Below, in pieces: positions 861 to 14,421 of a stretch of DNA of 26,651 nucleotides. Position 1 is the first letter of the stretch. Each line of letters begins with the position of its first letter. A program made the position numbers and the translations under genes. The notes beneath the pieces were generated by a model. It saw only the letters and a program-made list of their open reading frames with translations. It was not told the DNA's origin and did no database searches. Source of the stretch: a virus; the IMG/VR virus record IMGVR_UViG_3300035698_022952, positions 1 to 26,651 of that record; one strand, 5' to 3'.

Positions 861-1838
861 ATGGACACCATCACCATCATCGGCGGGCTGGTGCTCGCGT
901 GGCTCGTTCTGTCCCCGATGGCCTGGCTTGACGCGCTCTACTTGTCGCTTTGGGGGTCGGCGACCGGCACGTCGGGCTCGGGCTTCGGCAGCCTAGATGG
1001 GCTCCTCTTCGGGTCCGGCGCGAAGAAGATCGACACCTACGGCGAGGACGGCGTGCGCGAAGTGCTGGCGCAGGGGTCGCAGAAGCAAGACCTCATGTAC
1101 GAGCGCGCGGGGGCGCTCCTCGGAGAGATGCCGGGGCTGGTCAACGAGGGGTACGAGCGAGCGCAGCGGCAGGTGTCGGACCTCTCGCGTGAGCGGTCGC
1201 AGTCGATCCTCGACGCGCAGACCGCCGCGATGGGCGAGATCGAGGAGTCGTTCACTTCGCGCGGCATGAGCGCCTCGACGGTGCGGAACTCGGCCCAGCG
1301 AGCGCTCTCGAGCGACACGCAGCGGTCTCTGGGGGCGCTCTCGGGTCAGATGGCCGGGATCCTCACGGGGCTCGAGCAGCAGCGGACACAGCAGCTCATG
1401 GGCGTAAATCAGATGCAGGCGCAGCACGCGCGCGGCTTCGGCAACGCTCAGTGGGGGCAGGACATGGCGCGGGCCAACGCAATCATGAGTAACCCGATCA
1501 TCCCGCCGCAGCAGGGCATCATGGGCGACCTGATCGGCCTGGCTGGGACGGCGGCTCTGGTCGGGTGTTGGGTGGCGCGCGCGGCGTTCGGAGCGCAGAA
1601 CCCCGAGTGGCTGCTTTTCCGGCGCTGGAAGGACCGCTACGCGCCCCAGTGGTTCCGCGAGGGGTACAACCGGCACGGGCGCTGGATCGCCAAGTTCGTG
1701 CGCGGGCCGCTGCGACCGCTCGTGCGGTGCTGGATGCGCGCCAAGATCGCGTCGATGCCCCTCGAAGACCGCACGCTCCCCAAGTGGATCACGGCGCAGA
1801 GCAAGCGCGAGCCCGTCAATCCTCACTACGAGCACTAG
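861..1838 (+). CDS. Putative DNA-ejection / inner virion protein
   Basis: 325 residues, starting at ATG 861 behind an AGGGGA ribosome site (about 851-855) that overlaps the upstream stop. Residues 5-31 are strongly hydrophobic and could be a membrane segment; a second apolar stretch lies at about 221-236. Residues 60-205 are helical, Gln/Ser/Ala-rich and coiled-coil-like. Residues 236-296 form an unusual Trp/Arg-rich module that starts CWVARAAFG, continues through NPEWLLFRRW and APQWFREGYNRHG, and ends RCWMRAKI. I recall similar terminal modules from virion-associated proteins of environmental short-tailed phages, but could not check this. Position before another helical protein and the giant polyvalent gene suits a protein ejected with DNA to cross the envelope. 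Role inferred from composition and context. Confidence 0.6.
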   Translation: MDTITIIGGLVLAWLVLSPMAWLDALYLSLWGSATGTSGSGFGSLDGLLFGSGAKKIDTYGEDGVREVLAQGSQKQDLMYERAGALLGEMPGLVNEGYERAQRQVSDLSRERSQSILDAQTAAMGEIEESFTSRGMSASTVRNSAQRALSSDTQRSLGALSGQMAGILTGLEQQRTQQLMGVNQMQAQHARGFGNAQWGQDMARANAIMSNPIIPPQQGIMGDLIGLAGTAALVGCWVARAAFGAQNPEWLLFRRWKDRYAPQWFREGYNRHGRWIAKFVRGPLRPLVRCWMRAKIASMPLEDRTLPKWITAQSKREPVNPHYEH

Positions 1839-1844
1839 GGCACC

Positions 1845-3158
1845 ATGCCGCAGATTGTCAGACCGACGCAGCACCCCTGGTCGCAGGGCATCCAGCAGAT
1901 CACGAGTCAGGTGGCTCGGATGCCTCAGGAGCAGCGTGAGCAGGAGCGCCACGAACAGTGGCTAGGCCAGCAGGAGCGCCGTGGCGAGCGCGAGGAGCTG
2001 ACGCAGCAAGTCGAGCAGATGGAGTGGGCGCGCATCCAGCAGCGCGCGACCGTCGACGCGGCGAACTACGCGCAGAAGTACCCCGACATCGGCAAGGTCG
2101 TGAGCCGCCAGCTCGAAGCGTTGGCGTCGATCCAAGACCCGGCCGAGCGCTCGAGGTTCCTCGCGGAGCAGCTCGGGCGCGTGACGGCGATGGGTCGGTT
2201 GCGGGACATCCAGGCGTTCCGCGACGAGCTGGCGCAGGGGATCCAGGAGGGCCAGTACCAGATCCAAGACCCGATCGAGGGCGAGGAGGAGGGGGTCGAC
2301 TCCCAGCCGATGCTCCTCGAAGCGAAGCGGCTCCTTCAGGCTCTCGAGACGCACGGGTCGCAGATCACGCCGGAGCAACTTACGCAGCTCAAGGCGGCGG
2401 ACACGGAGCTGCGGCACACTTTGGCGCAGGAGACGGCCCGGCTCAGGCGGAGGCAGGCCGACCTCACATGGGGGCAGGAGAAGCTCGGGGCGACGGCGAC
2501 GACGACGCGGGAGCACGCTCAGATGCAGGCGGCGCTGGCGAAGTTCCAGCATGGGGCGATCAGTCGTGAAGACTTCGTGGCCGAGGTCGTGGAAGCCGAG
2601 ACGGGCGTATTGACGCAGCGATCGCCGAAGGCGATGGCGAACAAGGTGTGGGAGGACAGCGTCAAGTGGGCGTCGAGCCAGGACTTCGCGGTCAAGGACG
2701 CGACCGGTGCGACGGACTGGACGAAGGTCGAGGCGCTGGCACGTGAGCGTGCTCTTTTGATGAGCCAAGACCCGCGCTTCTTGCCGCCGCCGGCAGTAGG
2801 ACAAGGCGGCGCCGGCGCTCAAAGGCGCGCTGTGGGGACAGACGCGCCGGCGGATTCGGTCGGCGCCGCCTCCTTGTCCAAGGAGAAGCAAGGCGCGCTG
2901 ATGGAGGCGGCGAAGAACGACCGCCTGGGGCTCGCAAAGGCGATGCACGAGATGGGGCTTCGGAGCTTCGACGAACTACCGCCCGAGTTCCGAGCCGAGC
3001 TTCTCGCGGCCAAGCGCGAGTCGGAGGCGAAGGCCGCAGCCGAGGGCGAGGAGAAGAAGCGGCGCGGCCAGAAGCGCACCCACAGAGGGCTGACCCGCGA
3101 TCAGTGGGACAAGCACAGTCGCACGATCACGGGCAAGGCGAAGTACGGTGACGACTGA
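1845..3158 (+). CDS. Putative inner virion / ejection protein, helical
   Basis: 437 residues, beginning 6 bases after the preceding stop. The protein is almost entirely hydrophilic and helical: Gln/Glu/Arg-rich coiled-coil segments cover roughly residues 20-75 and 150-240, followed by a more globular region to about 315, a flexible Gly/Ala stretch (about 325-350) and a basic Lys/Arg-rich tail (about 395-437). There is no signal peptide or membrane segment. Length, composition and location between the membrane-segment protein and the giant polyvalent gene suggest a second internal core or ejection protein; the basic tail could contact DNA. No catalytic motif (for example lytic transglycosylase) is visible. 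Its TGA overlaps the next ATG by one base (TGATG). Confidence 0.55.
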   Translation: MPQIVRPTQHPWSQGIQQITSQVARMPQEQREQERHEQWLGQQERRGEREELTQQVEQMEWARIQQRATVDAANYAQKYPDIGKVVSRQLEALASIQDPAERSRFLAEQLGRVTAMGRLRDIQAFRDELAQGIQEGQYQIQDPIEGEEEGVDSQPMLLEAKRLLQALETHGSQITPEQLTQLKAADTELRHTLAQETARLRRRQADLTWGQEKLGATATTTREHAQMQAALAKFQHGAISREDFVAEVVEAETGVLTQRSPKAMANKVWEDSVKWASSQDFAVKDATGATDWTKVEALARERALLMSQDPRFLPPPAVGQGGAGAQRRAVGTDAPADSVGAASLSKEKQGALMEAAKNDRLGLAKAMHEMGLRSFDELPPEFRAELLAAKRESEAKAAAEGEEKKRRGQKRTHRGLTRDQWDKHSRTITGKAKYGDD

Positions 3159-3262
3159 TGCGCGTGCCCCCGAACCCCGAAGACGGCATTGAACGCTGGG
3201 AGTGGGTCATGCTTGGCGCGCTGGCGCTTCTGATGGTCCTCGCCGTTGCGGTGTCCCTATGA
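3158..3262 (+). CDS. 34-residue single-span membrane microprotein
   Basis: A short ORF of 34 codons. Its ATG shares a base with the upstream TGA (TGATG at 3156-3160) and its own TGA overlaps the ATG of the giant gene (ATGA at 3259-3262), so both junctions have the geometry of translational coupling. About residues 1-13 are hydrophilic (MRVPPNPEDGIER), a WEW aromatic belt follows, and residues 17-34 are a continuous apolar helix (VMLGALALLMVLAVAVSL). This predicts one transmembrane segment at the extreme C terminus. No function can be assigned. It could be a holin-like or ejection-channel accessory peptide, or mainly serve to couple translation of the giant gene. The overlaps and clean amphipathic layout argue it is real. 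Confidence 0.6.
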   Translation: MRVPPNPEDGIERWEWVMLGALALLMVLAVAVSL

Positions 3263-6200
3263 GCACGCAGGACGCGAAGGCGACGCAGGCCGGAGAGCTG
3301 GCGGCGCTTGAGGCCGAGCTGGACGCTGCAATGGCGGCGGACGCTCCGGCCGAGGGGCAGACCGTGAGCGGGTTCGACTTCCTGGCCGAGATGGACCCCG
3401 AGCTGGTCGAGTTCGCGGGCCAGGTGGCGCGAACGGAGCCGATCGGGTTCCGCGAGGCCGCGACCCACGAGTGGGCGCAGAAGGTGCCAGGGACGGGGCT
3501 CGTGTCGAGCATCCTCGACGCGAAGGGTCTCCTCGAGGCGGCGAAGGCGCTCCAGGACGGCGAGGCGACGCCCGAGCAGGTCGAGTCGATCATCGACGTC
3601 ATGAGCTGGACCGCGCGCGCCGAGAAGGGCGGCATGGGCTATTGGGCTGGCTCGATCCTCTCGGAGATGCCTGCTTACATGCTCGAGTTCGCGGCAACCG
3701 GCGGCGTGGCCGAGGTTGTCCGTGGGACGGCCGTGAAGGGCGCGAGCGCGGCGGCAAAGAAGGCGGTAGGGAAAGCGGTCGCGGGCGCCGTCGAGGGCGC
3801 GGCAGCGCGTGCTGCGACGTCGATGGCGGGCAAGCTGGCCTCGAAGGTCGGCGCAGGCAAGGTGTTGGGCGCGTCGCAGCGCGCGGCGATCCAGGCGGCA
3901 ATCGCCCCGAGCACGATCGCGCAAGCGTACGAGCGGATGCTCCCCGCGATGGGCTACGCCGAGGAGGCGAAGGGCGTCTCGCACGGTCTCGGGCTCGTGA
4001 TGGCGGGAACGGTGGACGACACGTGGGGCGCGATGCTTGAGGTGGCGCCTGCCGCCTGGGGCGACCAGTTCATCGAGTTCCTCTCGGAGCGCGGTGGCGA
4101 CCTCCCACCGCTGGCGCACCTGCACCGGCTGCAAGCGGCCGTGATGGCGAAGTGGCTCAAGCTTCGTCCGAGCAGCACGGTGGCGCAGTTCTCGGAGAAG
4201 GTGGCCTCGGAGGCTGGCTGGAACGGCGTGCTGGGCGAGATCGGCGAGGAGTCGCTCGGCGCGATCCTTCGCGCGTCGGTGGGGCTCGGCGAGTGGGATC
4301 AGGTCATCCCCGAGGGCGACCAGCTTGCGGGCATGTTCGTCGCGTTCTCGACGCTCCCAGTCGGCTCGGCGGCGCTTCAGAAGGGGCTCCAGGTGTGGTC
4401 GGAACCGCTCAAGATGGGAGACGGCACTGGGACGTTCGAGCCGGACGCGGACGAGCTGGCCGAGGCCGAAGCGGAGGCGGACGACTTCTTCGACGACGAC
4501 CTTGAGGACGGCGGGGGCGAGCCGATCGTCGACACGGGCGAGCTGGACCCGCCTGGCGTCGAGGCGGAGGCCGAGGCGGAGGCCGAGCCGGAGTTCGAGC
4601 CGGAGTTCGAGCCCGAGGCCCCCGAGGAGGCGCCGCCCGTCGTCGAGCCCGAGCTAGAGCTGGAGCCCGAGGTCGAGCCCGAGGTCGAGCCCGAGGCGAC
4701 GCGCGAGGCGACGCGCGAGGACGAACTGGAAGCGCTCGAGGATGAGCTGGACGCCGGGCTTGACGCCGGGCTTGACGGCGACGAGGACGCTCTCGCACCC
4801 GAGGACGAGGCACAAGCTGATGAGCCCGAGGGGGAGGACGTCTCGGAGCCGATTGAGATCGACGAAGCGCCCCCGTCAAGTGACGCACCACCGTCCGAAC
4901 CGTCCGAACCGTCCGACCGCCCGGCCGAGGAGGCCACCGAGGCCACCGAGGACGTTGAGGACGTTGAGGACGTTGAGGACGCTCCCGACGACGACCACGA
5001 GAGGGTCGCCAAGCACGTGCAATCGGCGCTCCTGGGGGGCACCGAGCGCGTACAGATGCGCGACGTTCGCGCGGCCTTCCCCGATCGGGACGCGAAGGCT
5101 CTCGAGGAGGCTGCGGAGGCTGGCGTGACGCGGGCCGCGCGGCAAATCTTCCAAGGGGTCGAGGAGGCCGACGACTTCGAGAGCGCGGAGGCCGAGGGCT
5201 TCGAGCGCGTGCTCGACCTCTACAAGCGCCAGCCGCGCTTCATCACGCGGACTTCGACCTCGTCGGAGCTTCAGCAGTATTCGACGCCGGCGCCCCTGGC
5301 GTGGATCGCAGGGCGGCTCGCGGGCTTGCACGGGAAGCTCCTGCCGTCGACGCGGCCGAAGGTGCTAGAGCCGACCGCAGGGAACGGGATGCTCCTCACG
5401 ACGGCGACCGAGAAGGCCGACTTCACGGTCAACGAGCTGTCCGAGGGACGGCTCGACGAGCTACGGCGTCGCGGCCTCAAAAACATCACGGCGCTCGACG
5501 CCACCGAGGCCACGTTCGAGCGCAAGTTCGACGCGGTCGTAGCGAACCCGCCTTTCGGGAAGGCTAGAGGGGAGCGCGGCGACGACACTCGGAAGCTCTC
5601 GGCGCCTGGCATGGTGCAAAGCACCGATCAGGGACACGTGATCGCGCTGCGGGCGCTCGACGGTCTCCGTGACGACGGCCGCGCCGTACTCATCCTCTCG
5701 GGCAAGAAGCACCTCGGGCGCGCTGACGCCGCAGAGACGGTCGAGAAGGGCAAATACAAGTCGAGGAACGATCGCGCCTTCTGGCGCGCGCTCCACGCGA
5801 ACTACAAGGTAGAGGACGTCTTCACGGTCGACGGCCGACTCTACGGGGGCCAAGGGGCAGCCTGGCCGGTGGACGTCGTCGTGATCGGCGGGCGCGGAAA
5901 GACCGAGGGCCGCGCCTGGCCGTGGGTCGAGCGTCCCGAGATCCTCACAACCTGGAAGGCGATTGATGAACGTACACGCGAACATGTGGAGCTGGTGTCC
6001 GCCCGGCAGGAGCCCGGTGATCGGCGCGGTCCAGATCCCAGCGGGGACGCAGATGGTGAGCCGCGAGAGGTACCGGACGGCGCTTCTGGAGAGGGTGGCG
6101 ACTCTTCTACGGGAGGCGGGGGAGGAGGGAATCGCGTACCTGGCGAGCGGCCCGTACGACCTAATCCCGATGCAGTTCCCGACTCCGACGGCGGGAGCGA

Positions 6201-9200
6201 GGGCGATTCTCGAGGAGCCAGCGATCGGGGATCAGACGCGACCTCCGGGGATTCGGTGGCCGGTGAAGGTAACGGCGTCGAATCGGATCGCGGAGAAAGC
6301 GATCAGGACGACGGATCTACAACAGTGGATCTTGAGCCTGGAGCCCTAGCTGACCTCCCGGACGGCGAGCAGATCGCAGACAAGATCCGGAAGCAGGAGG
6401 AGGCCCGGAAGGCGGCAACCGAGGCCCACGAAGACTCCGAGTTCCAGGTCGACTACGCGCCGCGGAGCAAGGCGTTGTCGGTCGGTACGAAGATGCCGAA
6501 GCAGCAGCTTCAGGCGCTCCAGAACGCGCTCACGCAGCTCGAGGCGCAAGTCGGCGGTGTCGACTCGTTCGTGCGGAAGAAGCTCGGCTACAAGTCGAAC
6601 GAGGCGCTCTTCAAGGCGTTCAGTGCCGAGCAGATCGACGCGATCGCGCTTTCGGTGTGGAACACCGACAACGGCGAGGCGCTGATCCTCGGGGACCAAA
6701 CGGGCGTCGGTAAAGGGCGCGTCGTCGCTGCCACGATCGTTTACGCGATCAAGAACAAGAAGATTCCCGTGTTCCTCACGGCGAAGCCGGGGCTCTACGT
6801 GGACATGGTCCGCGACCTCGTCGACATCGGGTTCCCGAACATCAAGATCCTGCCGACGAACAAGGATCTTCGCGGGAAGAAGGCGCTGCCGCTCGAGGGT
6901 GGCGAGAAGCTCGCATCGCTCAAGCCTTCCGAGTACGCCGCGGCGATGGAGTCGCTCTCGAAAGGCAAAATGCCCACGGGCTTCGATGTCATCTTTACAA
7001 CGTACGACCAGCAGACGCCGCGGGGCGCTCTCGCCGACTACCAGGCAGGGCTGGTCGGCGTCATCCCAAACGCCTTCTTGATCCTTGACGAGTCGCACGA
7101 AGCCGGGGGCGAGAAGGAGCCCGAGACCGACAAGGACGGGATCCTGAAGGAAAACCGCTCAACGTGGCTACGACGCCTCGTGCGGATGGCGGACTCCGTG
7201 CTCTACAGCTCGGCGACCTACGCGAAGAACCCCGACGTGATGAGCCTCTACATGAGGACAGGCATCTCGCGCGTCATCCAGAGCGGTGCCGAGCTTGCCG
7301 AGCTCCTGAAGAAAGGCGGGGTGCCGCTACAGCAAGTGATCTCGAACATGCTGGTCAAGGCCGGCCAGTACGTGCGGCGGGAGCGCACCTACGACGGGAT
7401 CAGCTTCGACATGATCGACGCGCCGACCGACGAGAAGCGCATGGGCGTCGTGACGGAGATGGTCGAAGGTCTCTTCCAGCTCGACCTCACGATGGACCAC
7501 GTGAGGACCGGCTACGCCGAGGCGGAAACGACCGGATCGGGCAGCGCGACGGCCCAGGACAGCGCTACGGGGTCGGCCGGCGCGGGGCAGTCGACGTTCT
7601 CGTCGGTGATGTACCACCTCGTCAATCAGGTGCTCTTGAGCGCCAAGGTCGACGGGGTCGTGGACCGCGCGATCAATGCGCACAAGCGCGGCGAGAAGCC
7701 CGTCATCGCCATCTCTAACACGAACGGCGCGCTCCTCACGGACTACACCGAAGCCCACGACATCGCTTTCGGCGAAAAGATCGAGGGCTTGGGGCTCAAC
7801 ACGGTTCTCGAGAACTACCTCCACAGGATGCGCACGGTCCGCGTCGTGGACCCCAACACCCGCGAGTCAGAAACGGTCTACCTTGATGACGCCGTGCTCG
7901 TTGGGTTGGGCTTCAAGAAGGAGCTCGACAGGTGGAACGAGCTACAGGCGAAGCTTCACGTTTCAAGCTTGGGGGAGCTCTCGGCAACGCCGATCGACAC
8001 GATCCTCTCGCGGCTCCGCGCCGCGGGAATCCGCATGGGCGAGCTCACGGGCCGCACCGAGCGCGTGGACGTCGACGCCGGCAACGTGTACGCGAAGCGC
8101 GAGCACAGCCAAGGCAACTCGAAGAGGACGATCCGTGACTTCCAAGAGGGCGAGCTCGACGGCCTGATCGTGAACCGCTCGGGTGCGACGGGCTACTCGA
8201 TGCACGCGAGCCGGCGCCCTGCCGACACGGACAAGCGACCGCGCGCAATGCTGATAGCCCAGGCGGAGCCCAACGTCGACACGTTCATGCAGATGCTCGG
8301 GCGGATCAACCGGACGGGCGAGGCGATCGGCGAGGACGGAAAGCCCGTCAAGCCGCGCTACGAGTTCCTCGTGACCGATCTTCCCGCGGAGCGCCGGCTG
8401 GCGTCGATGCACGAGGCCAAGATGGCGAGCCTCAACGCGCACACGACGAGCGCGCGGGCGGGCGCGGTGTCGGTCTCGGCCTCGGACTTCATGAACCCGA
8501 TCGGCGACGAGGTCATGTATTCGATCCTCTCCGAAGACGCCGCGCTCGCTCAACGGTTGGGGTACGGCGAGGTGGACGTCGGAACCGACGACGACGATCA
8601 TCACGCTCCGGAAGAGAAGAAGAAGGGGCCGAAGATCGGCACCCCCGAGAAGCCCAAGGAAGGACTCGCGCGCCAAGCGTCGGGTCGCTTCATGGTGCTG
8701 CGGCCCAAGGAGCAGGCCGAGCTCTACGAGCAAATCGACGCGATGTACGCCGAGGCGCTCCAGACGAGCAACACGTTGGGCTTCAACTCGCTCGAGGCAC
8801 AGGTGTTGGATCTCTCGGCCAAGCCGGCCGGAGAGTCGGTCGTCATCTTTGCCGAGCGGGAAGGGGATGGCCCGTTCTCCGAACAGGCGGTGGTCGAGAA
8901 GCTCGAGGTCAACAACCTTGACCCGCCGCCGTCGTACAAGGAGGTGCAGAAGAGCATCGCAAGCAAAGCGCGTGTCGTCGCCACGCCAGCGGACATCGCA
9001 CAAGCCTCCGAGACCGTCGAGGGCGCGCACAAGCACCTGATGGAGATGCTTGGGCGGTTCACCCCCCGGCCGGACGACGTCGAGGGACTTCGGACGTTCC
9101 GCGAGGCGATCGAGGAGAAGTTCACGTTTGGCGCCTCGCGCCTTCCCTTGGAGCTCACGCGGCCGAGCCATTGGGCGGACTACGAGGCTTTCAAGGCGAT

Positions 9201-12200
9201 CTACCATCGGATGCTTCGGGTGCTCACGGTGAACGCGGAAGAGGCCGGGGAGCTCGAGACGCAGGCCGAGAAGGACGCCGCAATGATCGAACGCCGCGCA
9301 GCGGAGGCGGAAGGGCGCGAGGTCAAGGGCGTCAAGGCGCCGAAGGCCGTCAAGGCCGCCGCGGCGATGACCAGAGCCGCGGTGCAGCAAGCCGAAGAGG
9401 CGGAAGAGGTGATTAGCGCCGTGTGGAAGCGCCTCAAGGTCGGGGAGCCGGTGCAGATCGGCTACCCGACCAAAGACCTCATCACGGACGAAGAGACGCG
9501 CTCCTTCGTGCCTGGCGTCGTTGTCAGCATGGAGTGGCGCCGGAAGCGCAAGAGCCCGTACGCCTTGAGCGATTGGGTCGTCGCGGTGCAGACGTCGGAC
9601 GCGAAGGCGCCGATCCACGTGCCGCTCTCGAAGCTCGCCCGTGGATGGTCGATCGACCCAGAGTCGGAGCGCTACGTGTCCGAGGCTTTTGATGCGAGAC
9701 GGAAGCCGCGCGAAATCCGCGAGGTGGGCACGGGGAACATCCTCGCAGCGTTCAAGGTGATGGGTGGCAAGGGCCAGATCGCGCACTTCACGCGCGCGGA
9801 CGGGACAACCGACTTCGGGGTCGTCTACGCGCGCGGGTTCAAGTCCCAGGAGGCGCTCGATGCGAATCCCGTCGTGCTCCAGGCCGGCCAGGTCGCCGAC
9901 TTCTTCGATCAGGTCGGGGACGCCCCCGCGGCGGTCTACTCGGGACCGCTCGCGATCACGCGCGACAGGGGCACCTACGTTCTTTCGGTCAGCGCGCGGA
10001 AGGGCAAGCCCTACTACCTCAACCGGAACGTGCGATCCCTCGTCGGCGACTTCACGCGCCGAGACGGCAAATGGACCGCACGCATTGATGACCCCATGAC
10101 GCTCCGGGTAGCGCTCGAGACGTGGGCGAACGAGATCCAGGCCGAATACACCGTTACGGCTAGTGGGCTCAAATACTACGCACGGGAGGCGGCAAGCACG
10201 AACGTAGCTGGCTCGCCCGTGGGCTCGCCAGCGCGCACACCGGGCTCGACGTCGGCGCGCGAGGGCGCGCTCAGGACTCACCGGCCGTCCGAGTTCCGTA
10301 GCACCGAGGACCGCATCGCAGATGGGCTCAGGGGCCGGCTGGCGAAGCCGCCGCGGGCGCCCAAGCGGGGACGTATCACGATCCCCGAAGTCATCGACAG
10401 CTACTCGCGCATCCTGCTCGCGGCCGGCGCCAACACGCCGATCCGCTTCGGGCACATGCGTGGGCGGAAGTACGCCGGCTACTTCATCGTGTCGCCCGAG
10501 CTCATCCGGGTGCGCGTGCGTAACGACATCCGCACCGCGGCGCACGAGGTAGCTCACGCGCTCGAGAAGGCCGTCTTCGGGTGGTCCAAGGGCGGACCGT
10601 GGCGTGCTCCGAGAACCTCCATACAGATGCGCCGCGAGCTCATGAAGCTGGGCCGCGCGCTCTACGGGCAAGAGAAGCCCGAGGGCGGGTACAGGCGCGA
10701 AGGCTGGGCCGAGTTCGTGCGAATGTGGATCACGGAGTCTGACCGCGGGCGCGCGGCGGCGCCGCACACCTTCCGCTGGCTCAACGACGTCTTCCTCGAG
10801 GCGCGTCCCGACGTCAAGCGCGAGATGTACGCGGCGCGCGAGGCGACGACGCTCTGGCGCAAGCAAGGCAGCCTGGCGCGCGGGCAGGCGCACGTTATCG
10901 AGCCGGGCACGTGGCGCTACCGCTACGAGAGGTTCCGCGAGAAGTGGACAAAGGACCGCACGCTGGGCTCGTTCCTCGACGCTCAGTGGTCGCTCGGGGA
11001 CCTCACGGCCCAGGTGGAGCGCCTCACGGGTAAACCGCTCGAGCCCTCCAAAGACCCCTTCATGCTCGCCCAGGCGACCAGAAAGCGCGCGGGGGCGATC
11101 GTCGAGCAGATGGTCGAGACGGGGATGCTCGACCTTGGCACGAACGTCGTCGGGCCGGCGCTCGCGGGAATCCGCAGCCTCGTCAAGAAGAACGAGCGCC
11201 ACGACTTCATCATCTACCTCCTCGCGCGCCGGACGCTGGCGCTCGCGGGGCACCCCGACTACGTCGCGTCGCACCTCATCACCACGGAGGGCATGGTGCC
11301 GTCGTTCAAGCCTCGGGACACAGGCATCAGCCTCCCGGACGCCGAGCAGATCATCAAGGAGCTCGACTCGGTCAGCTTCGGGGTCGCGGCGGACCGCGTC
11401 TACCGTTGGGCGGACGGGTTGCTTGACTACGCCGCGCAGGCGAGCCCGCAGTACGCGACGGTCGTGCGGCACATCAGGAAGGTCGACCCCGGCCAGTACG
11501 TGCCTCTCCAGCGCGAGTTCGATCGGATGATCGGCTCGTACAAGGGTGGCTCCGCGGCCGGTGGGAGCCCGGTGCAGCGGCTCAAGGGCTCGACGCGCCG
11601 GATCAAGGACCCCTTCCAGAGCCTCATCGCCAAGGCCGAGAAGATGGTCGCCATGAGCCATCAACGGATGGTGCTCGAGGCCGTGATGGAGCTCTCGAAG
11701 GTCGAGGGGATCGGCAAGTTCATCGAGGTCGTGCCGGTCTCCGAGGCGCCCGTGGCGGCGCGCACGGTCGAGGAGCTCATGCGCGAGCTCGAACGCACGA
11801 CGGGCCTGGAAGCGCGGCTCACGATCGAGGGGGGCGGGTGGGAGGGTCTCGCGCCGGACGAGGCCGGCCTCGTCTTCCGGGACTCGATCAAGTTCTTCGC
11901 GCCGGTGTGGCAGCCGAAGGGGGACGAACCGATCTTCCCGATGATCGACAAGGTGGGAAAGATCAAGTGGATCCGCGTCAAGGACGTCAACTTGCTCGAG
12001 GCTCTGCACGAGATGAACGTGTACGAGCTCAACCCGTTTCTGAACGCGACGCTCGGGGCCAACGCGCGCATGTTCCGGCTCGGGACGACCGGACTCCGGG
12101 CCAGCTTTGGGCTCGTGACGAACCCGCAGCGGGACATCGTGACGGCGCTCCTCAACAGCCGCGCGTCGGCCAACTCGGGCCAAATGTTCCTTCAGATTAT

Positions 12201-13599
12201 GCGGATGCTCTTTCACGCGGGGCTCCACGCGGCAACGGGCGAGGCGCACGACCCGGCGCTGCGCGCGTACCTCCAAATGGGCGGTGAGCTGGTGCAGAGC
12301 ATGGGGCAGGACACGGCCCACGTGCATCGCGCGAGCCGGCGCCTCTTCGAGTCCAAGAAGGAGCGCGCGCTCGACGCTCGCAACTGGATCGACGTCATGC
12401 GGTCGGTGCTCCAGATTCCCGAGGTCGCGGTCCGTGCGGCCGAGGTCAAGATGGTGGGGCGCGACATCGGCTGGACGCCGGGGGAGGATCTGACGCTCGA
12501 TCAGCGCATCCGGCTCTCGACAGCGGGCGCGACAGTGACGACCGACTTCACACGCCAAGGGGCTATCTCGGCCCTCATCAACCGGATGGTGCCGTTCCAC
12601 ACGGCTTCGATCTCGGGCAAGATCGACCACTGGAACGCCTACAAGCGGAACCCGGTCAAGTTTCTCATCCGGGTGGTCTCGAGCCTCACGGTCCCGTCGC
12701 TGATCTCCTACGCCTTCTTCCACGACGAGGAGTGGTTCGAGGAGATGGACGCTTCGGAGCGGGCGCTCTACTTGCTGATTCCCGTTCCTGGGACGAACGA
12801 GGTTTTGAAGATCCCACGCCCGCACGAAGTCGGCGTGCTTTTCGGTGGTCTCCCGATCGCCTTGCTTGACGCCTGGAAGTACCAGGATCCCGCCGCGGCG
12901 ACGCAATGGCTCAACGAGTTCAAGGAGGCGCTCGAGGCGCCGCTCGTGCCGCCCCTGGCCGAGACGTCGCTCGAGCTCGCGGCCAACTACGACTGGTTCT
13001 TCGACCGGCCGATCGTGCCGGCGCGCGAGCAGCGGCTCCCGAAGGCCGAGCAGCACGGCGCGTACACCGCGGGGCTCGCAGTGTGGGCCGGCGAGGTCTT
13101 AGGCCAGAGCCCGCGGAAGATCGAGCACGCGATCGGCGGCATGTTCGGCGGGGTCGCGCTCGACCTGCTGCACGGGCTCGACTTCGGCGGCACGGGGAGC
13201 AAGGACGTACGGAACCCCGAGGCGGCGGACTTCCCGGTGTTCGGACGCGCGTTCCGGCGCGGCGGGGCGACGATCACCAGATCGAAGTCCATCGACGCGC
13301 TCTACGAGACGCTCGACTTCGCCCAGCTCAGGAGCAACAGCCGGAGGCACGAGGAAACGCCGGCCGAGCGCCAGCAGCGTCTTCAGCTCGAGGACGCGAC
13401 GAGGGCGCTAACAAAAATGGGCCAAATGCGCTCGACGGAGCCCAAGCGGTCGGTTCGCGCGCTGATGAGTCGTAAGATGGCGCAACTCGCCAAGGACGCG
13501 GTAAGCGACTTTGAAGCAGGCCGCCTGCGCCGCGAGTTCTACCGATTCCAGCGACAACGGGCCGAACGCGACCTCGATCTCCGCGAGAAGCGAGAATGA
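3259..13599 (+). CDS. Giant polyvalent protein: DarB-like methyltransferase + Strawberry-notch helicase + metallopeptidase + LPD38-like
   Basis: 3446 residues from ATG 3259. This start is preferred over an in-frame ATG at 3202 because it forms an ATGA overlap with the microprotein gene. Order: Ala-rich helical region with apolar stretches (about 30-390); acidic Glu/Asp/Pro repeats (about 394-588); adenine methyltransferase (about 660-900) with QYSTP, motif I VLEPTAGNG at 702 and catalytic NPPF at 763-766; low-complexity linker; SF2 helicase of Strawberry-notch/DarB type (about 1090-2300) with Walker A GDQTGVGKG (Lys1152), DESH at 1277, SAT at 1318 and QMLGRINRTG at 1678; zinc peptidase HEVAH at 2429-2433 with likely third ligand Glu2485 in GWAEF; and a long C-terminal LPD38-like region (about 2850-3350) containing TNPQRD at 2954. 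P1 DarB is injected and protects DNA from type I restriction. A role in the virion with delivery into the host is inferred. All catalytic motifs look intact. Confidence 0.9.
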   Translation: MSTQDAKATQAGELAALEAELDAAMAADAPAEGQTVSGFDFLAEMDPELVEFAGQVARTEPIGFREAATHEWAQKVPGTGLVSSILDAKGLLEAAKALQDGEATPEQVESIIDVMSWTARAEKGGMGYWAGSILSEMPAYMLEFAATGGVAEVVRGTAVKGASAAAKKAVGKAVAGAVEGAAARAATSMAGKLASKVGAGKVLGASQRAAIQAAIAPSTIAQAYERMLPAMGYAEEAKGVSHGLGLVMAGTVDDTWGAMLEVAPAAWGDQFIEFLSERGGDLPPLAHLHRLQAAVMAKWLKLRPSSTVAQFSEKVASEAGWNGVLGEIGEESLGAILRASVGLGEWDQVIPEGDQLAGMFVAFSTLPVGSAALQKGLQVWSEPLKMGDGTGTFEPDADELAEAEAEADDFFDDDLEDGGGEPIVDTGELDPPGVEAEAEAEAEPEFEPEFEPEAPEEAPPVVEPELELEPEVEPEVEPEATREATREDELEALEDELDAGLDAGLDGDEDALAPEDEAQADEPEGEDVSEPIEIDEAPPSSDAPPSEPSEPSDRPAEEATEATEDVEDVEDVEDAPDDDHERVAKHVQSALLGGTERVQMRDVRAAFPDRDAKALEEAAEAGVTRAARQIFQGVEEADDFESAEAEGFERVLDLYKRQPRFITRTSTSSELQQYSTPAPLAWIAGRLAGLHGKLLPSTRPKVLEPTAGNGMLLTTATEKADFTVNELSEGRLDELRRRGLKNITALDATEATFERKFDAVVANPPFGKARGERGDDTRKLSAPGMVQSTDQGHVIALRALDGLRDDGRAVLILSGKKHLGRADAAETVEKGKYKSRNDRAFWRALHANYKVEDVFTVDGRLYGGQGAAWPVDVVVIGGRGKTEGRAWPWVERPEILTTWKAIDERTREHVELVSARQEPGDRRGPDPSGDADGEPREVPDGASGEGGDSSTGGGGGGNRVPGERPVRPNPDAVPDSDGGSEGDSRGASDRGSDATSGDSVAGEGNGVESDRGESDQDDGSTTVDLEPGALADLPDGEQIADKIRKQEEARKAATEAHEDSEFQVDYAPRSKALSVGTKMPKQQLQALQNALTQLEAQVGGVDSFVRKKLGYKSNEALFKAFSAEQIDAIALSVWNTDNGEALILGDQTGVGKGRVVAATIVYAIKNKKIPVFLTAKPGLYVDMVRDLVDIGFPNIKILPTNKDLRGKKALPLEGGEKLASLKPSEYAAAMESLSKGKMPTGFDVIFTTYDQQTPRGALADYQAGLVGVIPNAFLILDESHEAGGEKEPETDKDGILKENRSTWLRRLVRMADSVLYSSATYAKNPDVMSLYMRTGISRVIQSGAELAELLKKGGVPLQQVISNMLVKAGQYVRRERTYDGISFDMIDAPTDEKRMGVVTEMVEGLFQLDLTMDHVRTGYAEAETTGSGSATAQDSATGSAGAGQSTFSSVMYHLVNQVLLSAKVDGVVDRAINAHKRGEKPVIAISNTNGALLTDYTEAHDIAFGEKIEGLGLNTVLENYLHRMRTVRVVDPNTRESETVYLDDAVLVGLGFKKELDRWNELQAKLHVSSLGELSATPIDTILSRLRAAGIRMGELTGRTERVDVDAGNVYAKREHSQGNSKRTIRDFQEGELDGLIVNRSGATGYSMHASRRPADTDKRPRAMLIAQAEPNVDTFMQMLGRINRTGEAIGEDGKPVKPRYEFLVTDLPAERRLASMHEAKMASLNAHTTSARAGAVSVSASDFMNPIGDEVMYSILSEDAALAQRLGYGEVDVGTDDDDHHAPEEKKKGPKIGTPEKPKEGLARQASGRFMVLRPKEQAELYEQIDAMYAEALQTSNTLGFNSLEAQVLDLSAKPAGESVVIFAEREGDGPFSEQAVVEKLEVNNLDPPPSYKEVQKSIASKARVVATPADIAQASETVEGAHKHLMEMLGRFTPRPDDVEGLRTFREAIEEKFTFGASRLPLELTRPSHWADYEAFKAIYHRMLRVLTVNAEEAGELETQAEKDAAMIERRAAEAEGREVKGVKAPKAVKAAAAMTRAAVQQAEEAEEVISAVWKRLKVGEPVQIGYPTKDLITDEETRSFVPGVVVSMEWRRKRKSPYALSDWVVAVQTSDAKAPIHVPLSKLARGWSIDPESERYVSEAFDARRKPREIREVGTGNILAAFKVMGGKGQIAHFTRADGTTDFGVVYARGFKSQEALDANPVVLQAGQVADFFDQVGDAPAAVYSGPLAITRDRGTYVLSVSARKGKPYYLNRNVRSLVGDFTRRDGKWTARIDDPMTLRVALETWANEIQAEYTVTASGLKYYAREAASTNVAGSPVGSPARTPGSTSAREGALRTHRPSEFRSTEDRIADGLRGRLAKPPRAPKRGRITIPEVIDSYSRILLAAGANTPIRFGHMRGRKYAGYFIVSPELIRVRVRNDIRTAAHEVAHALEKAVFGWSKGGPWRAPRTSIQMRRELMKLGRALYGQEKPEGGYRREGWAEFVRMWITESDRGRAAAPHTFRWLNDVFLEARPDVKREMYAAREATTLWRKQGSLARGQAHVIEPGTWRYRYERFREKWTKDRTLGSFLDAQWSLGDLTAQVERLTGKPLEPSKDPFMLAQATRKRAGAIVEQMVETGMLDLGTNVVGPALAGIRSLVKKNERHDFIIYLLARRTLALAGHPDYVASHLITTEGMVPSFKPRDTGISLPDAEQIIKELDSVSFGVAADRVYRWADGLLDYAAQASPQYATVVRHIRKVDPGQYVPLQREFDRMIGSYKGGSAAGGSPVQRLKGSTRRIKDPFQSLIAKAEKMVAMSHQRMVLEAVMELSKVEGIGKFIEVVPVSEAPVAARTVEELMRELERTTGLEARLTIEGGGWEGLAPDEAGLVFRDSIKFFAPVWQPKGDEPIFPMIDKVGKIKWIRVKDVNLLEALHEMNVYELNPFLNATLGANARMFRLGTTGLRASFGLVTNPQRDIVTALLNSRASANSGQMFLQIMRMLFHAGLHAATGEAHDPALRAYLQMGGELVQSMGQDTAHVHRASRRLFESKKERALDARNWIDVMRSVLQIPEVAVRAAEVKMVGRDIGWTPGEDLTLDQRIRLSTAGATVTTDFTRQGAISALINRMVPFHTASISGKIDHWNAYKRNPVKFLIRVVSSLTVPSLISYAFFHDEEWFEEMDASERALYLLIPVPGTNEVLKIPRPHEVGVLFGGLPIALLDAWKYQDPAAATQWLNEFKEALEAPLVPPLAETSLELAANYDWFFDRPIVPAREQRLPKAEQHGAYTAGLAVWAGEVLGQSPRKIEHAIGGMFGGVALDLLHGLDFGGTGSKDVRNPEAADFPVFGRAFRRGGATITRSKSIDALYETLDFAQLRSNSRRHEETPAERQQRLQLEDATRALTKMGQMRSTEPKRSVRALMSRKMAQLAKDAVSDFEAGRLRREFYRFQRQRAERDLDLREKRE
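4438..5004 (+). repeat. Acidic in-frame tandem repeats inside giant gene
   Basis: Short direct repeats, mostly of 6, 9 or 12 bases, all multiples of three, so the frame is kept. Visible units include FEPE-type and EVEP-type repeats (about 4591-4692), a 12-base unit encoding ATRE twice (about 4696-4719), a 12-base unit encoding DAGL twice (about 4750-4773), a 9-base unit encoding SEP repeats near 4891-4916 and a 9-base unit encoding EDV three times (about 4952-4980). The product is a disordered polyanionic spacer between the N-terminal helical region and the methyltransferase. Slippage or unequal recombination probably varies its length between relatives. Confidence 0.8.
5954..5959 (+). promoter_or_regulatory. 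Shine-Dalgarno for the nested ORF
   Basis: GGAAGG lies six bases upstream of ATG 5966, a near-ideal ribosome site inside the giant coding frame. In the giant frame these bases are part of ordinary Trp-Lys-Ala codons, so chance is possible. The site is better than those of several accepted genes in this window, and it favours ATG 5966 over the adjacent TTG at 5963. Confidence 0.5.
5966..6349 (+). CDS. Nested 127-residue protein overlapping the giant gene in another frame
   Basis: An ORF wholly inside the giant gene, shifted by one base, over the linker joining methyltransferase and helicase. By hand count about 82% of its codons end in G or C, against about 54% for the giant frame across the same bases; the giant frame's usual high GC3 returns on both sides. 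So codon constraint switches frame close to this ORF's start and stop. The product has balanced composition: a Trp/Pro N terminus (MWSWCPPG), an amphipathic helix (ERYRTALLERVATLLREAG), then AYLASGPYDLIPMQFP and a helical C terminus ending QQWILSLEP. The giant frame here is Gly/Asp/Ser/Glu-rich and disordered. No signal peptide or membrane segment. I do not recognise the family. It may be a co-expressed partner or regulator of the giant protein, or a formerly separate gene engulfed by a fusion. Confidence 0.6.
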   Translation: MNVHANMWSWCPPGRSPVIGAVQIPAGTQMVSRERYRTALLERVATLLREAGEEGIAYLASGPYDLIPMQFPTPTAGARAILEEPAIGDQTRPPGIRWPVKVTASNRIAEKAIRTTDLQQWILSLEP

Positions 13600-13603
13600 G
13601 GCC

Positions 13604-13933
13604 ATGCCCCAAGACTCCATGAGCACTGTGCTGACCAAAGCCTCGACCATCGAGCTCTCCCTCGTGCTCCTGATCGTCGGAGGGATCGCCGGTGGCTCCG
13701 CTTGGTGCACGAAGATTTCGATCTCGCAAGCGCAACTCTCGACCGATCTCGAAGAGCTCGGGGTCAACATGGTCACCGCCTCGGTCGACGTCGTCCGCCG
13801 GCAAGAGCTGCGCTCGTGGATCGACGGCGTCAACCGCGAGATGCGCCAGTGGAACGATCACGTGAACAACACTCTGACCCTCGAGGGGCCTAACCAGATC
13901 CGCCGCCTCGAGTTCCCCTACCCCCCCCGATGA
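13604..13933 (+). CDS. Single-span membrane protein, possible lysis or envelope protein
   Basis: 109 residues from ATG 13604, two bases after a short TGAGG and 4 bases past the stop of the giant gene. A more upstream in-frame start at 13511 would overlap the giant gene's conserved C terminus, so it is not preferred; ATG 13619 is an alternative. Residues about 17-37 form one transmembrane helix (IELSLVLLIVGGIAGGSAW). The rest is a hydrophilic helical domain and a Pro-rich C terminus (FPYPPR). This N-in, C-out shape with a following lipoprotein gene resembles an inner-membrane spanin paired with an outer-membrane spanin, but the sequence itself does not prove it. It overlaps the lipoprotein gene as ATGA (13930-13933). 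Confidence 0.6.
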   Translation: MPQDSMSTVLTKASTIELSLVLLIVGGIAGGSAWCTKISISQAQLSTDLEELGVNMVTASVDVVRRQELRSWIDGVNREMRQWNDHVNNTLTLEGPNQIRRLEFPYPPR

Positions 13934-14421
13934 AGCAACTACTCCTGATCACCGCCCTTGCCCTTGCCGCTCTCCTCTCTACCTCGTGCGTTGCCACCCA
14001 GGCCGACATCGCGGAGCTGGGGGACATGATCGAAGAGCGCGACGTCGCCGTGCAGGAGGCGCGTGCGCTCTACGCCGATGGGCTCATCACGCCCGAGCAT
14101 CTCGGCAACCTCTTGGCGCAAGCCAACCAGGACGCCGCCAGGGCCGTGAACGCCAAGGTGGACGATATCCAGGGCCGCGGCGCCCAGGTCATCAACTCCC
14201 TGCCGACGACCGGGAACGGCCTCGTGGACATCGCTATCGCGCTCGCGGGCATGTTCGCCACGTACAAGACGGCCGAGAAGACGATCAGCAACAAGGTCGA
14301 CCACAACCGCGACGTCAAGCGTCTCTTGCGCCACGAGCCGGTCGCGGTGGCTGATCTTGCAGAGCCGTCATACAAGATGGGTACGCCCAGCATGTCGAAG
14401 ACGACGATGGGGACCCGCTAG
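13930..14421 (+). CDS. Putative lipoprotein, possible outer spanin
   Basis: 163 residues, starting at the ATGA overlap with the membrane-protein gene and lacking its own clear ribosome site, so translation is probably coupled. The N terminus is a lipoprotein signal: a Lys (MKQ), a Leu/Ala hydrophobic core and a lipobox-like LSTSC with Cys20 as the likely lipidated residue; Ser at -3 is not the most typical choice. The mature part is helical and acidic to about residue 90, then has a moderately apolar stretch (about 97-112, including GLVDIAIALAGMFATY), then a basic region. It is longer than most outer spanins, so a different envelope or virion role is equally possible. It is the last gene of the plus-strand block. 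Confidence 0.65.
   Translation: MKQLLLITALALAALLSTSCVATQADIAELGDMIEERDVAVQEARALYADGLITPEHLGNLLAQANQDAARAVNAKVDDIQGRGAQVINSLPTTGNGLVDIAIALAGMFATYKTAEKTISNKVDHNRDVKRLLRHEPVAVADLAEPSYKMGTPSMSKTTMGTR

Follow-up and report, generated by a model that had tools for sequence, protein, structure and literature searches.

A single gene in the window analysed here (positions 1-26,651 of the linear, 26,651-base IMG/VR virus record IMGVR_UViG_3300035698_022952) encodes a giant polyvalent protein of 3,446 residues, in which an adenine methyltransferase, a Strawberry-notch (SNO) SWI2/SNF2-type ATPase, a predicted zincin metallopeptidase and an LPD38 C-terminus follow one another in this order. We propose, with a probability of about 0.7, that this protein is packaged in the virion of a podovirus-like phage and co-injected with the genome, its C-terminal part being a carrier that delivers a DNA-protecting methyltransferase-SNO payload. 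The window is a 26.6-kb fragment, and the protein is known here from its sequence alone. The first-pass annotation had read four modules in one intact chain in the order given above; the open reading frame, the domain matches and the predicted fold agree with this, and all the residues that it had named (NPPF, Lys1152, DESH, GRINRTG, HEVAH and Glu2485) are in place. Its assignment to the polyvalent proteins is borne out by the several disparate activities in one polypeptide, the LPD38 domain and the late-gene context.

The gene (3259-13599, plus strand, as are all modules given below) starts with the ATG at 3259, overlaps the preceding ORF by ATGA and runs in an unbroken frame to the stop at 13599. 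Its GC content by codon position (0.68/0.46/0.87) agrees with that of the adjacent genes; by the same measure a long antisense ORF (7963-13056) was rejected as a mirror artefact of the giant gene. A search of NCBIfam gave no match, and the protein as a single query found no close relative in the viral contigs or genome contigs searched. The Ala-rich N-terminal region (residues ~93-202; 3535-3864) has related stretches in two other giants, a metagenomic one (L026) and that of Bacteroides phage BS-TP4; first-round matches were weak (phmmer E about 2e-4 to 3e-4; blastp 9e-7), and the iterated profile reached E values of 1e-34 and 2e-25, respectively, after their inclusion. It is followed by an acidic low-complexity tract (residues 396-605; 4444-5073) with 40% D/E and 4% K/R, encoded by 9-, 12- and 24-nt tandem repeats, which is probably a linker. 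A conserved DNA mimic was rejected for this tract, as no member of a set of 80 related SNO giants is as acidic over 150 residues.

The adenine methyltransferase domain (residues 671-876; 5269-5886) carries an STP motif, EPTAGNG and, at residue 763, NPPF. It matches the Pfam N6_Mtase family at an E value of 0.004, which is under the curated cut-off, a DNA methyltransferase family of the PHROGs (E 2e-7), a methyltransferase profile of PADLOC (E 3e-10) and P1 DarB (blastp E 6e-9, 30% identity across 147 residues). Motif IV reads NPP[FYW] in the window protein and in all 80 SNO giants, and NVPF in P1 DarB. Given this NVPF, the methyltransferase of P1 DarB (L186:10469-17236) may be divergent or inactive.

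The SNO ATPase (residues ~1085-1880; 6511-8898) was identified by two direct Pfam matches over the curated cut-offs, AAA_34 (residues 1139-1395, E 1.8e-20) and Helicase_C_4 (residues 1593-1759, E 1.9e-13), together with unbroken motifs: Lys1152 within GDQTGVGKGR, DESH at 1277, SAT, and GRINRTG at 1681. This combination places the protein among the SNO ATPases; at first reading the segment had been called a helicase. In the SNO tree it falls inside an all-viral group of seven (SH-aLRT 99), separate from the plasmid rows, and its nearest relative is a metagenomic sequence (L099) with 43% identity; long branches make the finer placement unsure. Downstream of the ATPase lies a domain (residues ~2052-2298; 9412-10152) that is common to the plasmid methyltransferase-SNO proteins and resembles SH3/Tudor-like barrels in weak structural matches, all with Z under 7. 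Within it, a motif RExR...TGNILAxF (residues ~2151-2166; 9709-9756) is strongly conserved and common to the phage SNO giants.

The metallopeptidase segment (residues ~2373-2518; 10375-10812) matches no profile in Pfam, PHROG or PADLOC. Its HExxH (HEVAH at 2429) and Glu2485 are invariant across the homologue alignments (n=8 and n=50), and 48 of the 69 viral SNO giants counted have a HExxH C-terminal to the SNO module, where shuffling of the residues would lead one to expect 1.2; a chance occurrence of the motif is thereby ruled out. An AlphaFold2 model of residues 2320-3446 (50-row alignment; mean pLDDT 81.8, pTM 0.76) predicts three strands followed by the HExxH helix and, after it, a helix bearing Glu2485, which is the layout described for the polyvalent zincins, with a three-stranded sheet and a Glu on the second helix (PMC5512222). 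The earlier peptidase call thus holds through invariance and predicted fold, the check by structure prediction having given the zincin layout. By VIA-align the modelled segment superposes on zincins of the lethal-factor catalytic domain type (Z 9.5, rmsd 3.7, 139 aligned residues) and on Pro-Pro endopeptidases (Z 8.8, rmsd 3.4, 127 aligned), matches that concern the predicted fold alone and do not indicate a substrate.

Between the peptidase and LPD38 lies a conserved helical region (residues ~2545-3100; 10891-12558), delimited by profile and predicted structure. The LPD38 domain itself (residues 3157-3326; 12727-13236) is a direct match to Pfam PF18857 (E 1.4e-29; 104 bits, curated cut-off 27), as had been noted. 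Foldseek gave no match of the helical/LPD38 region to solved structures at E <= 0.001; the VIA-align rows for the C-terminal model are nearly all of the peptidase and barely cover the helical/LPD38 region. The 1,127-residue C-terminal model matches many predicted phage-protein structures over most of its length, with E values down to 2e-33. The names among these matches (RelA/SpoT, LT_GEWL, type I methylase) imply that the same C-terminus is paired with different payloads. Many relatives are short (1.3-2.2 kaa) and have the C-terminal region and no match to the methyltransferase or SNO, while others bear InPase, ParB, LPD3 or transglycosylase domains N-terminal to it. A constant C-terminus with exchangeable payloads across relatives supports a role of these ~1,000 residues (zincin, helical region and LPD38) as a constant carrier in delivery or assembly.

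Two scans of IMG/VR yielded 160 loci. Of the ORFs found, 69 exceed 2,500 residues, carry the methyltransferase and SNO and have an intact 3' end, a set that includes one cultured phage, some 5'-open ORFs and some near-duplicates; 42 of these 69 match the C-terminal profile at E < 1e-5. By tblastn in phages, Bacteroides phage BS-TP4 and an Acinetobacter phage have the methyltransferase-SNO pair, and phages of Vibrio, Shewanella, Thalassomonas, Bacillus and Pelagibacter have the C-terminus; the peptidase segment is present, with HExxH aligned, in BA3-like phages and VvAW1. The combination and order of modules had been singled out for comparison with described polyvalent proteins. They are not unusual: dozens of viral contigs share the same order, which rules out a unique architecture. 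The earlier interpretation is sound in kind, yet this set of modules occurs commonly in viral metagenomes and has been annotated piecemeal in cultured phages.

Two mid-sized genes and a small membrane ORF precede the giant gene. The first two encode a 325-residue protein (861-1838, plus strand) and a charged protein of 437 residues (1845-3158, plus strand); both lack a family match and are probable ejection proteins by position, and no homologue of either was found in the collected loci. The third ORF, of 34 codons (3158-3262, plus strand), encodes one predicted membrane span and overlaps both neighbours (TGATG and ATGA); it is likely a real, translationally coupled gene overlooked by length cut-offs. 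The terminase, portal and head-closure genes of the window are all on the minus strand. Downstream of the giant gene, an ORF for a membrane span and a polar helix (13511-13933) is followed by one with a lipoprotein-like signal, STSC (13930-14421), which may be a spanin-like lysis pair. The giant gene thus lies next to late or virion genes, the context used to recognize phage polyvalent proteins, and looks to be placed in a third ejection-protein slot among them. Same-strand ORFs are found immediately upstream of the giant in 20 related loci, and in VvAW1 and BA3 the giant is directly downstream of a gene annotated as DNA ejection. Phage DEV, with its ejection genes gp73-gp72-gp71, of which gp71 is a virion RNA polymerase of 3,398 residues (PMC10925440), is a precedent for a giant in such a position.

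Packaging of the window protein may be argued from a homologue. Burkholderia phage JC1 gp69 (4,515 residues) matches the C-terminal profile over residues 3621-4513 (E 1.5e-73) and was detected by mass spectrometry, with 51 unique peptides, in CsCl-purified virions (PMC9144972); by analogy, the window protein would be a virion component too. We propose that, upon infection, it would exit the capsid via the tail, either together with the DNA or before it. Once in the cytoplasm, its SNO ATPase would translocate along the duplex entering the cell, and the methyltransferase fused to it would meanwhile N6-methylate adenines; this methylation would keep host restriction from attacking the phage DNA. 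Methylation of the incoming genome with SNO translocation was proposed for the methyltransferase-SNO pair by Iyer et al. (PMC5512222). Since the peptidase belongs to the constant part, it would most likely act on the giant protein itself, at assembly or after ejection, freeing the payload from the carrier; the virion RNA polymerase of N4 has such a zincin domain, yet is packaged unprocessed (PMC5512222). Injection, like packaging, is inferred from JC1 gp69 and from a gene position in which podoviruses have their ejection proteins, and methylation, DNA protection and self-cleavage are what the domains would predict. The fact that P1 DarB, the sole functionally tested relative, has only the methyltransferase in common with the window protein, and there with NVPF for NPPF, counts against this explanation, as do the N6_Mtase match under the Pfam cut-off and the negative search of solved structures with the helical/LPD38 region.

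The gene order would also suit a protein that forms the inner-membrane part of the ejection conduit, in the slot of T7 gp16 or DEV gp71, where the SNO module pulls the genome in and methylation is secondary. The place of the giant gene behind two smaller genes and a membrane ORF, the same-strand upstream ORFs of the related loci, the dsDNA translocase type of the SNO ATPase and the proposal that DEV gp71 pulls DNA in (PMC10925440) all speak for it. We nevertheless consider it unlikely, as many phages have the same C-terminus in short proteins without a SNO motor and as neither sequence nor fold comparisons tied the protein to known ejection proteins. No better a chance is given to a peptidase and/or methyltransferase directed at host proteins or host DNA instead of the phage's own: Iyer et al. 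allow such a reading (PMC5512222), and the zincin fold is similar to that of secreted effector-type metalloproteinases, but a shared fold reveals no substrate, and the peptidase is part of the C-terminus that stays constant as payloads vary, which points to a function in assembly or delivery. Rather more speculative is a combination of entry motor and antirestriction device, in which LPD38-type C-termini would be the third conduit component and dock at the inner membrane, and the fused SNO would use ATP hydrolysis to reel the genome in, with the methyltransferase marking the DNA on its way through. Least probable is an unpackaged late enzyme that methylates progeny DNA inside the cell ahead of packaging, with which the late-gene location by itself and the presence of the same methyltransferase-SNO pair on plasmids, which have no capsid, are compatible, but the carrier was not found among the plasmid proteins scanned and carrier-bearing JC1 gp69 is a virion protein (PMC9144972).

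The results show that giants built from a methyltransferase, SNO, a peptidase and LPD38 recur widely among phages as one design, in which the C-terminal carrier is constant and the payloads are exchangeable, the carrier being linked via JC1 gp69 to virion-detected proteins. Packaging, ejection and perhaps processing of such giants become testable in cultured phages by simple point mutants.

P1 DarB (2,255 residues), whose methyltransferase is homologous, resides in the phage head and protects DNA in cis (PMC5512222, PMC9024508), which speaks for the packaged, DNA-protecting reading. Of the likeness to DarB that had been suggested, the homologous methyltransferase stands and nothing else aligned: DarB has an SNF2-type motor, no HExxH and no LPD38, and matches neither the SNO profile nor the C-terminal profile. 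Its motor gives no significant blastp match to that of the window protein, whereas the motors of VvAW1 gp1 and JC1 gp69 do align. LPD36, an N-terminal feature of P1 DarB, gave no Pfam match in the window protein, although distant forms could escape. With the methyltransferase alone homologous, the window protein is ruled out as a DarB orthologue.

Plasmid proteins (Chroococcidiopsis pB and others) share the methyltransferase, SNO and post-helicase domain with 34% identity, the best matches being cyanobacterial, and in these the peptidase/LPD38 carrier was not found. A Thalassospira plasmid record (L182) has an 18.5-kb gene for a giant SNO protein and may be a phage-plasmid. BS-TP4 gp3 (5,391 residues) shares the methyltransferase, SNO, LPD38 and part of the N-terminus; unlike the window protein, it has N-terminal ddrB-ParB and InPase domains and no HExxH. 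JC1 gp69, of the Bcep22 gp75 family, is encoded at the end of the virion module and shares the methyltransferase, an SF2 motor, HExxH and LPD38, but its motor is of the SNF2 type and it has an additional N-terminal transglycosylase and LPD3. The "DarB-like antirestriction" protein gp1 of Vibrio phage VvAW1 (3,640 residues) has the methyltransferase, an SF2 motor, a HEMAH peptidase and LPD38 in the identical order, with a motor of the SNF2/DarB type where that of the window protein is SNO. The IMG/VR giants, such as L163 (3,684 residues) and L121 (3,768 residues), have methyltransferase, SNO, HExxH and LPD38 in the same order, and the module spacing of L121 resembles that of the window protein; they differ in their low identity (28% for the C-terminus of L163), in the longer N-termini of several and in that none has the acidic tract. 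The window protein therefore belongs to a large, already partly described family of giant proteins.
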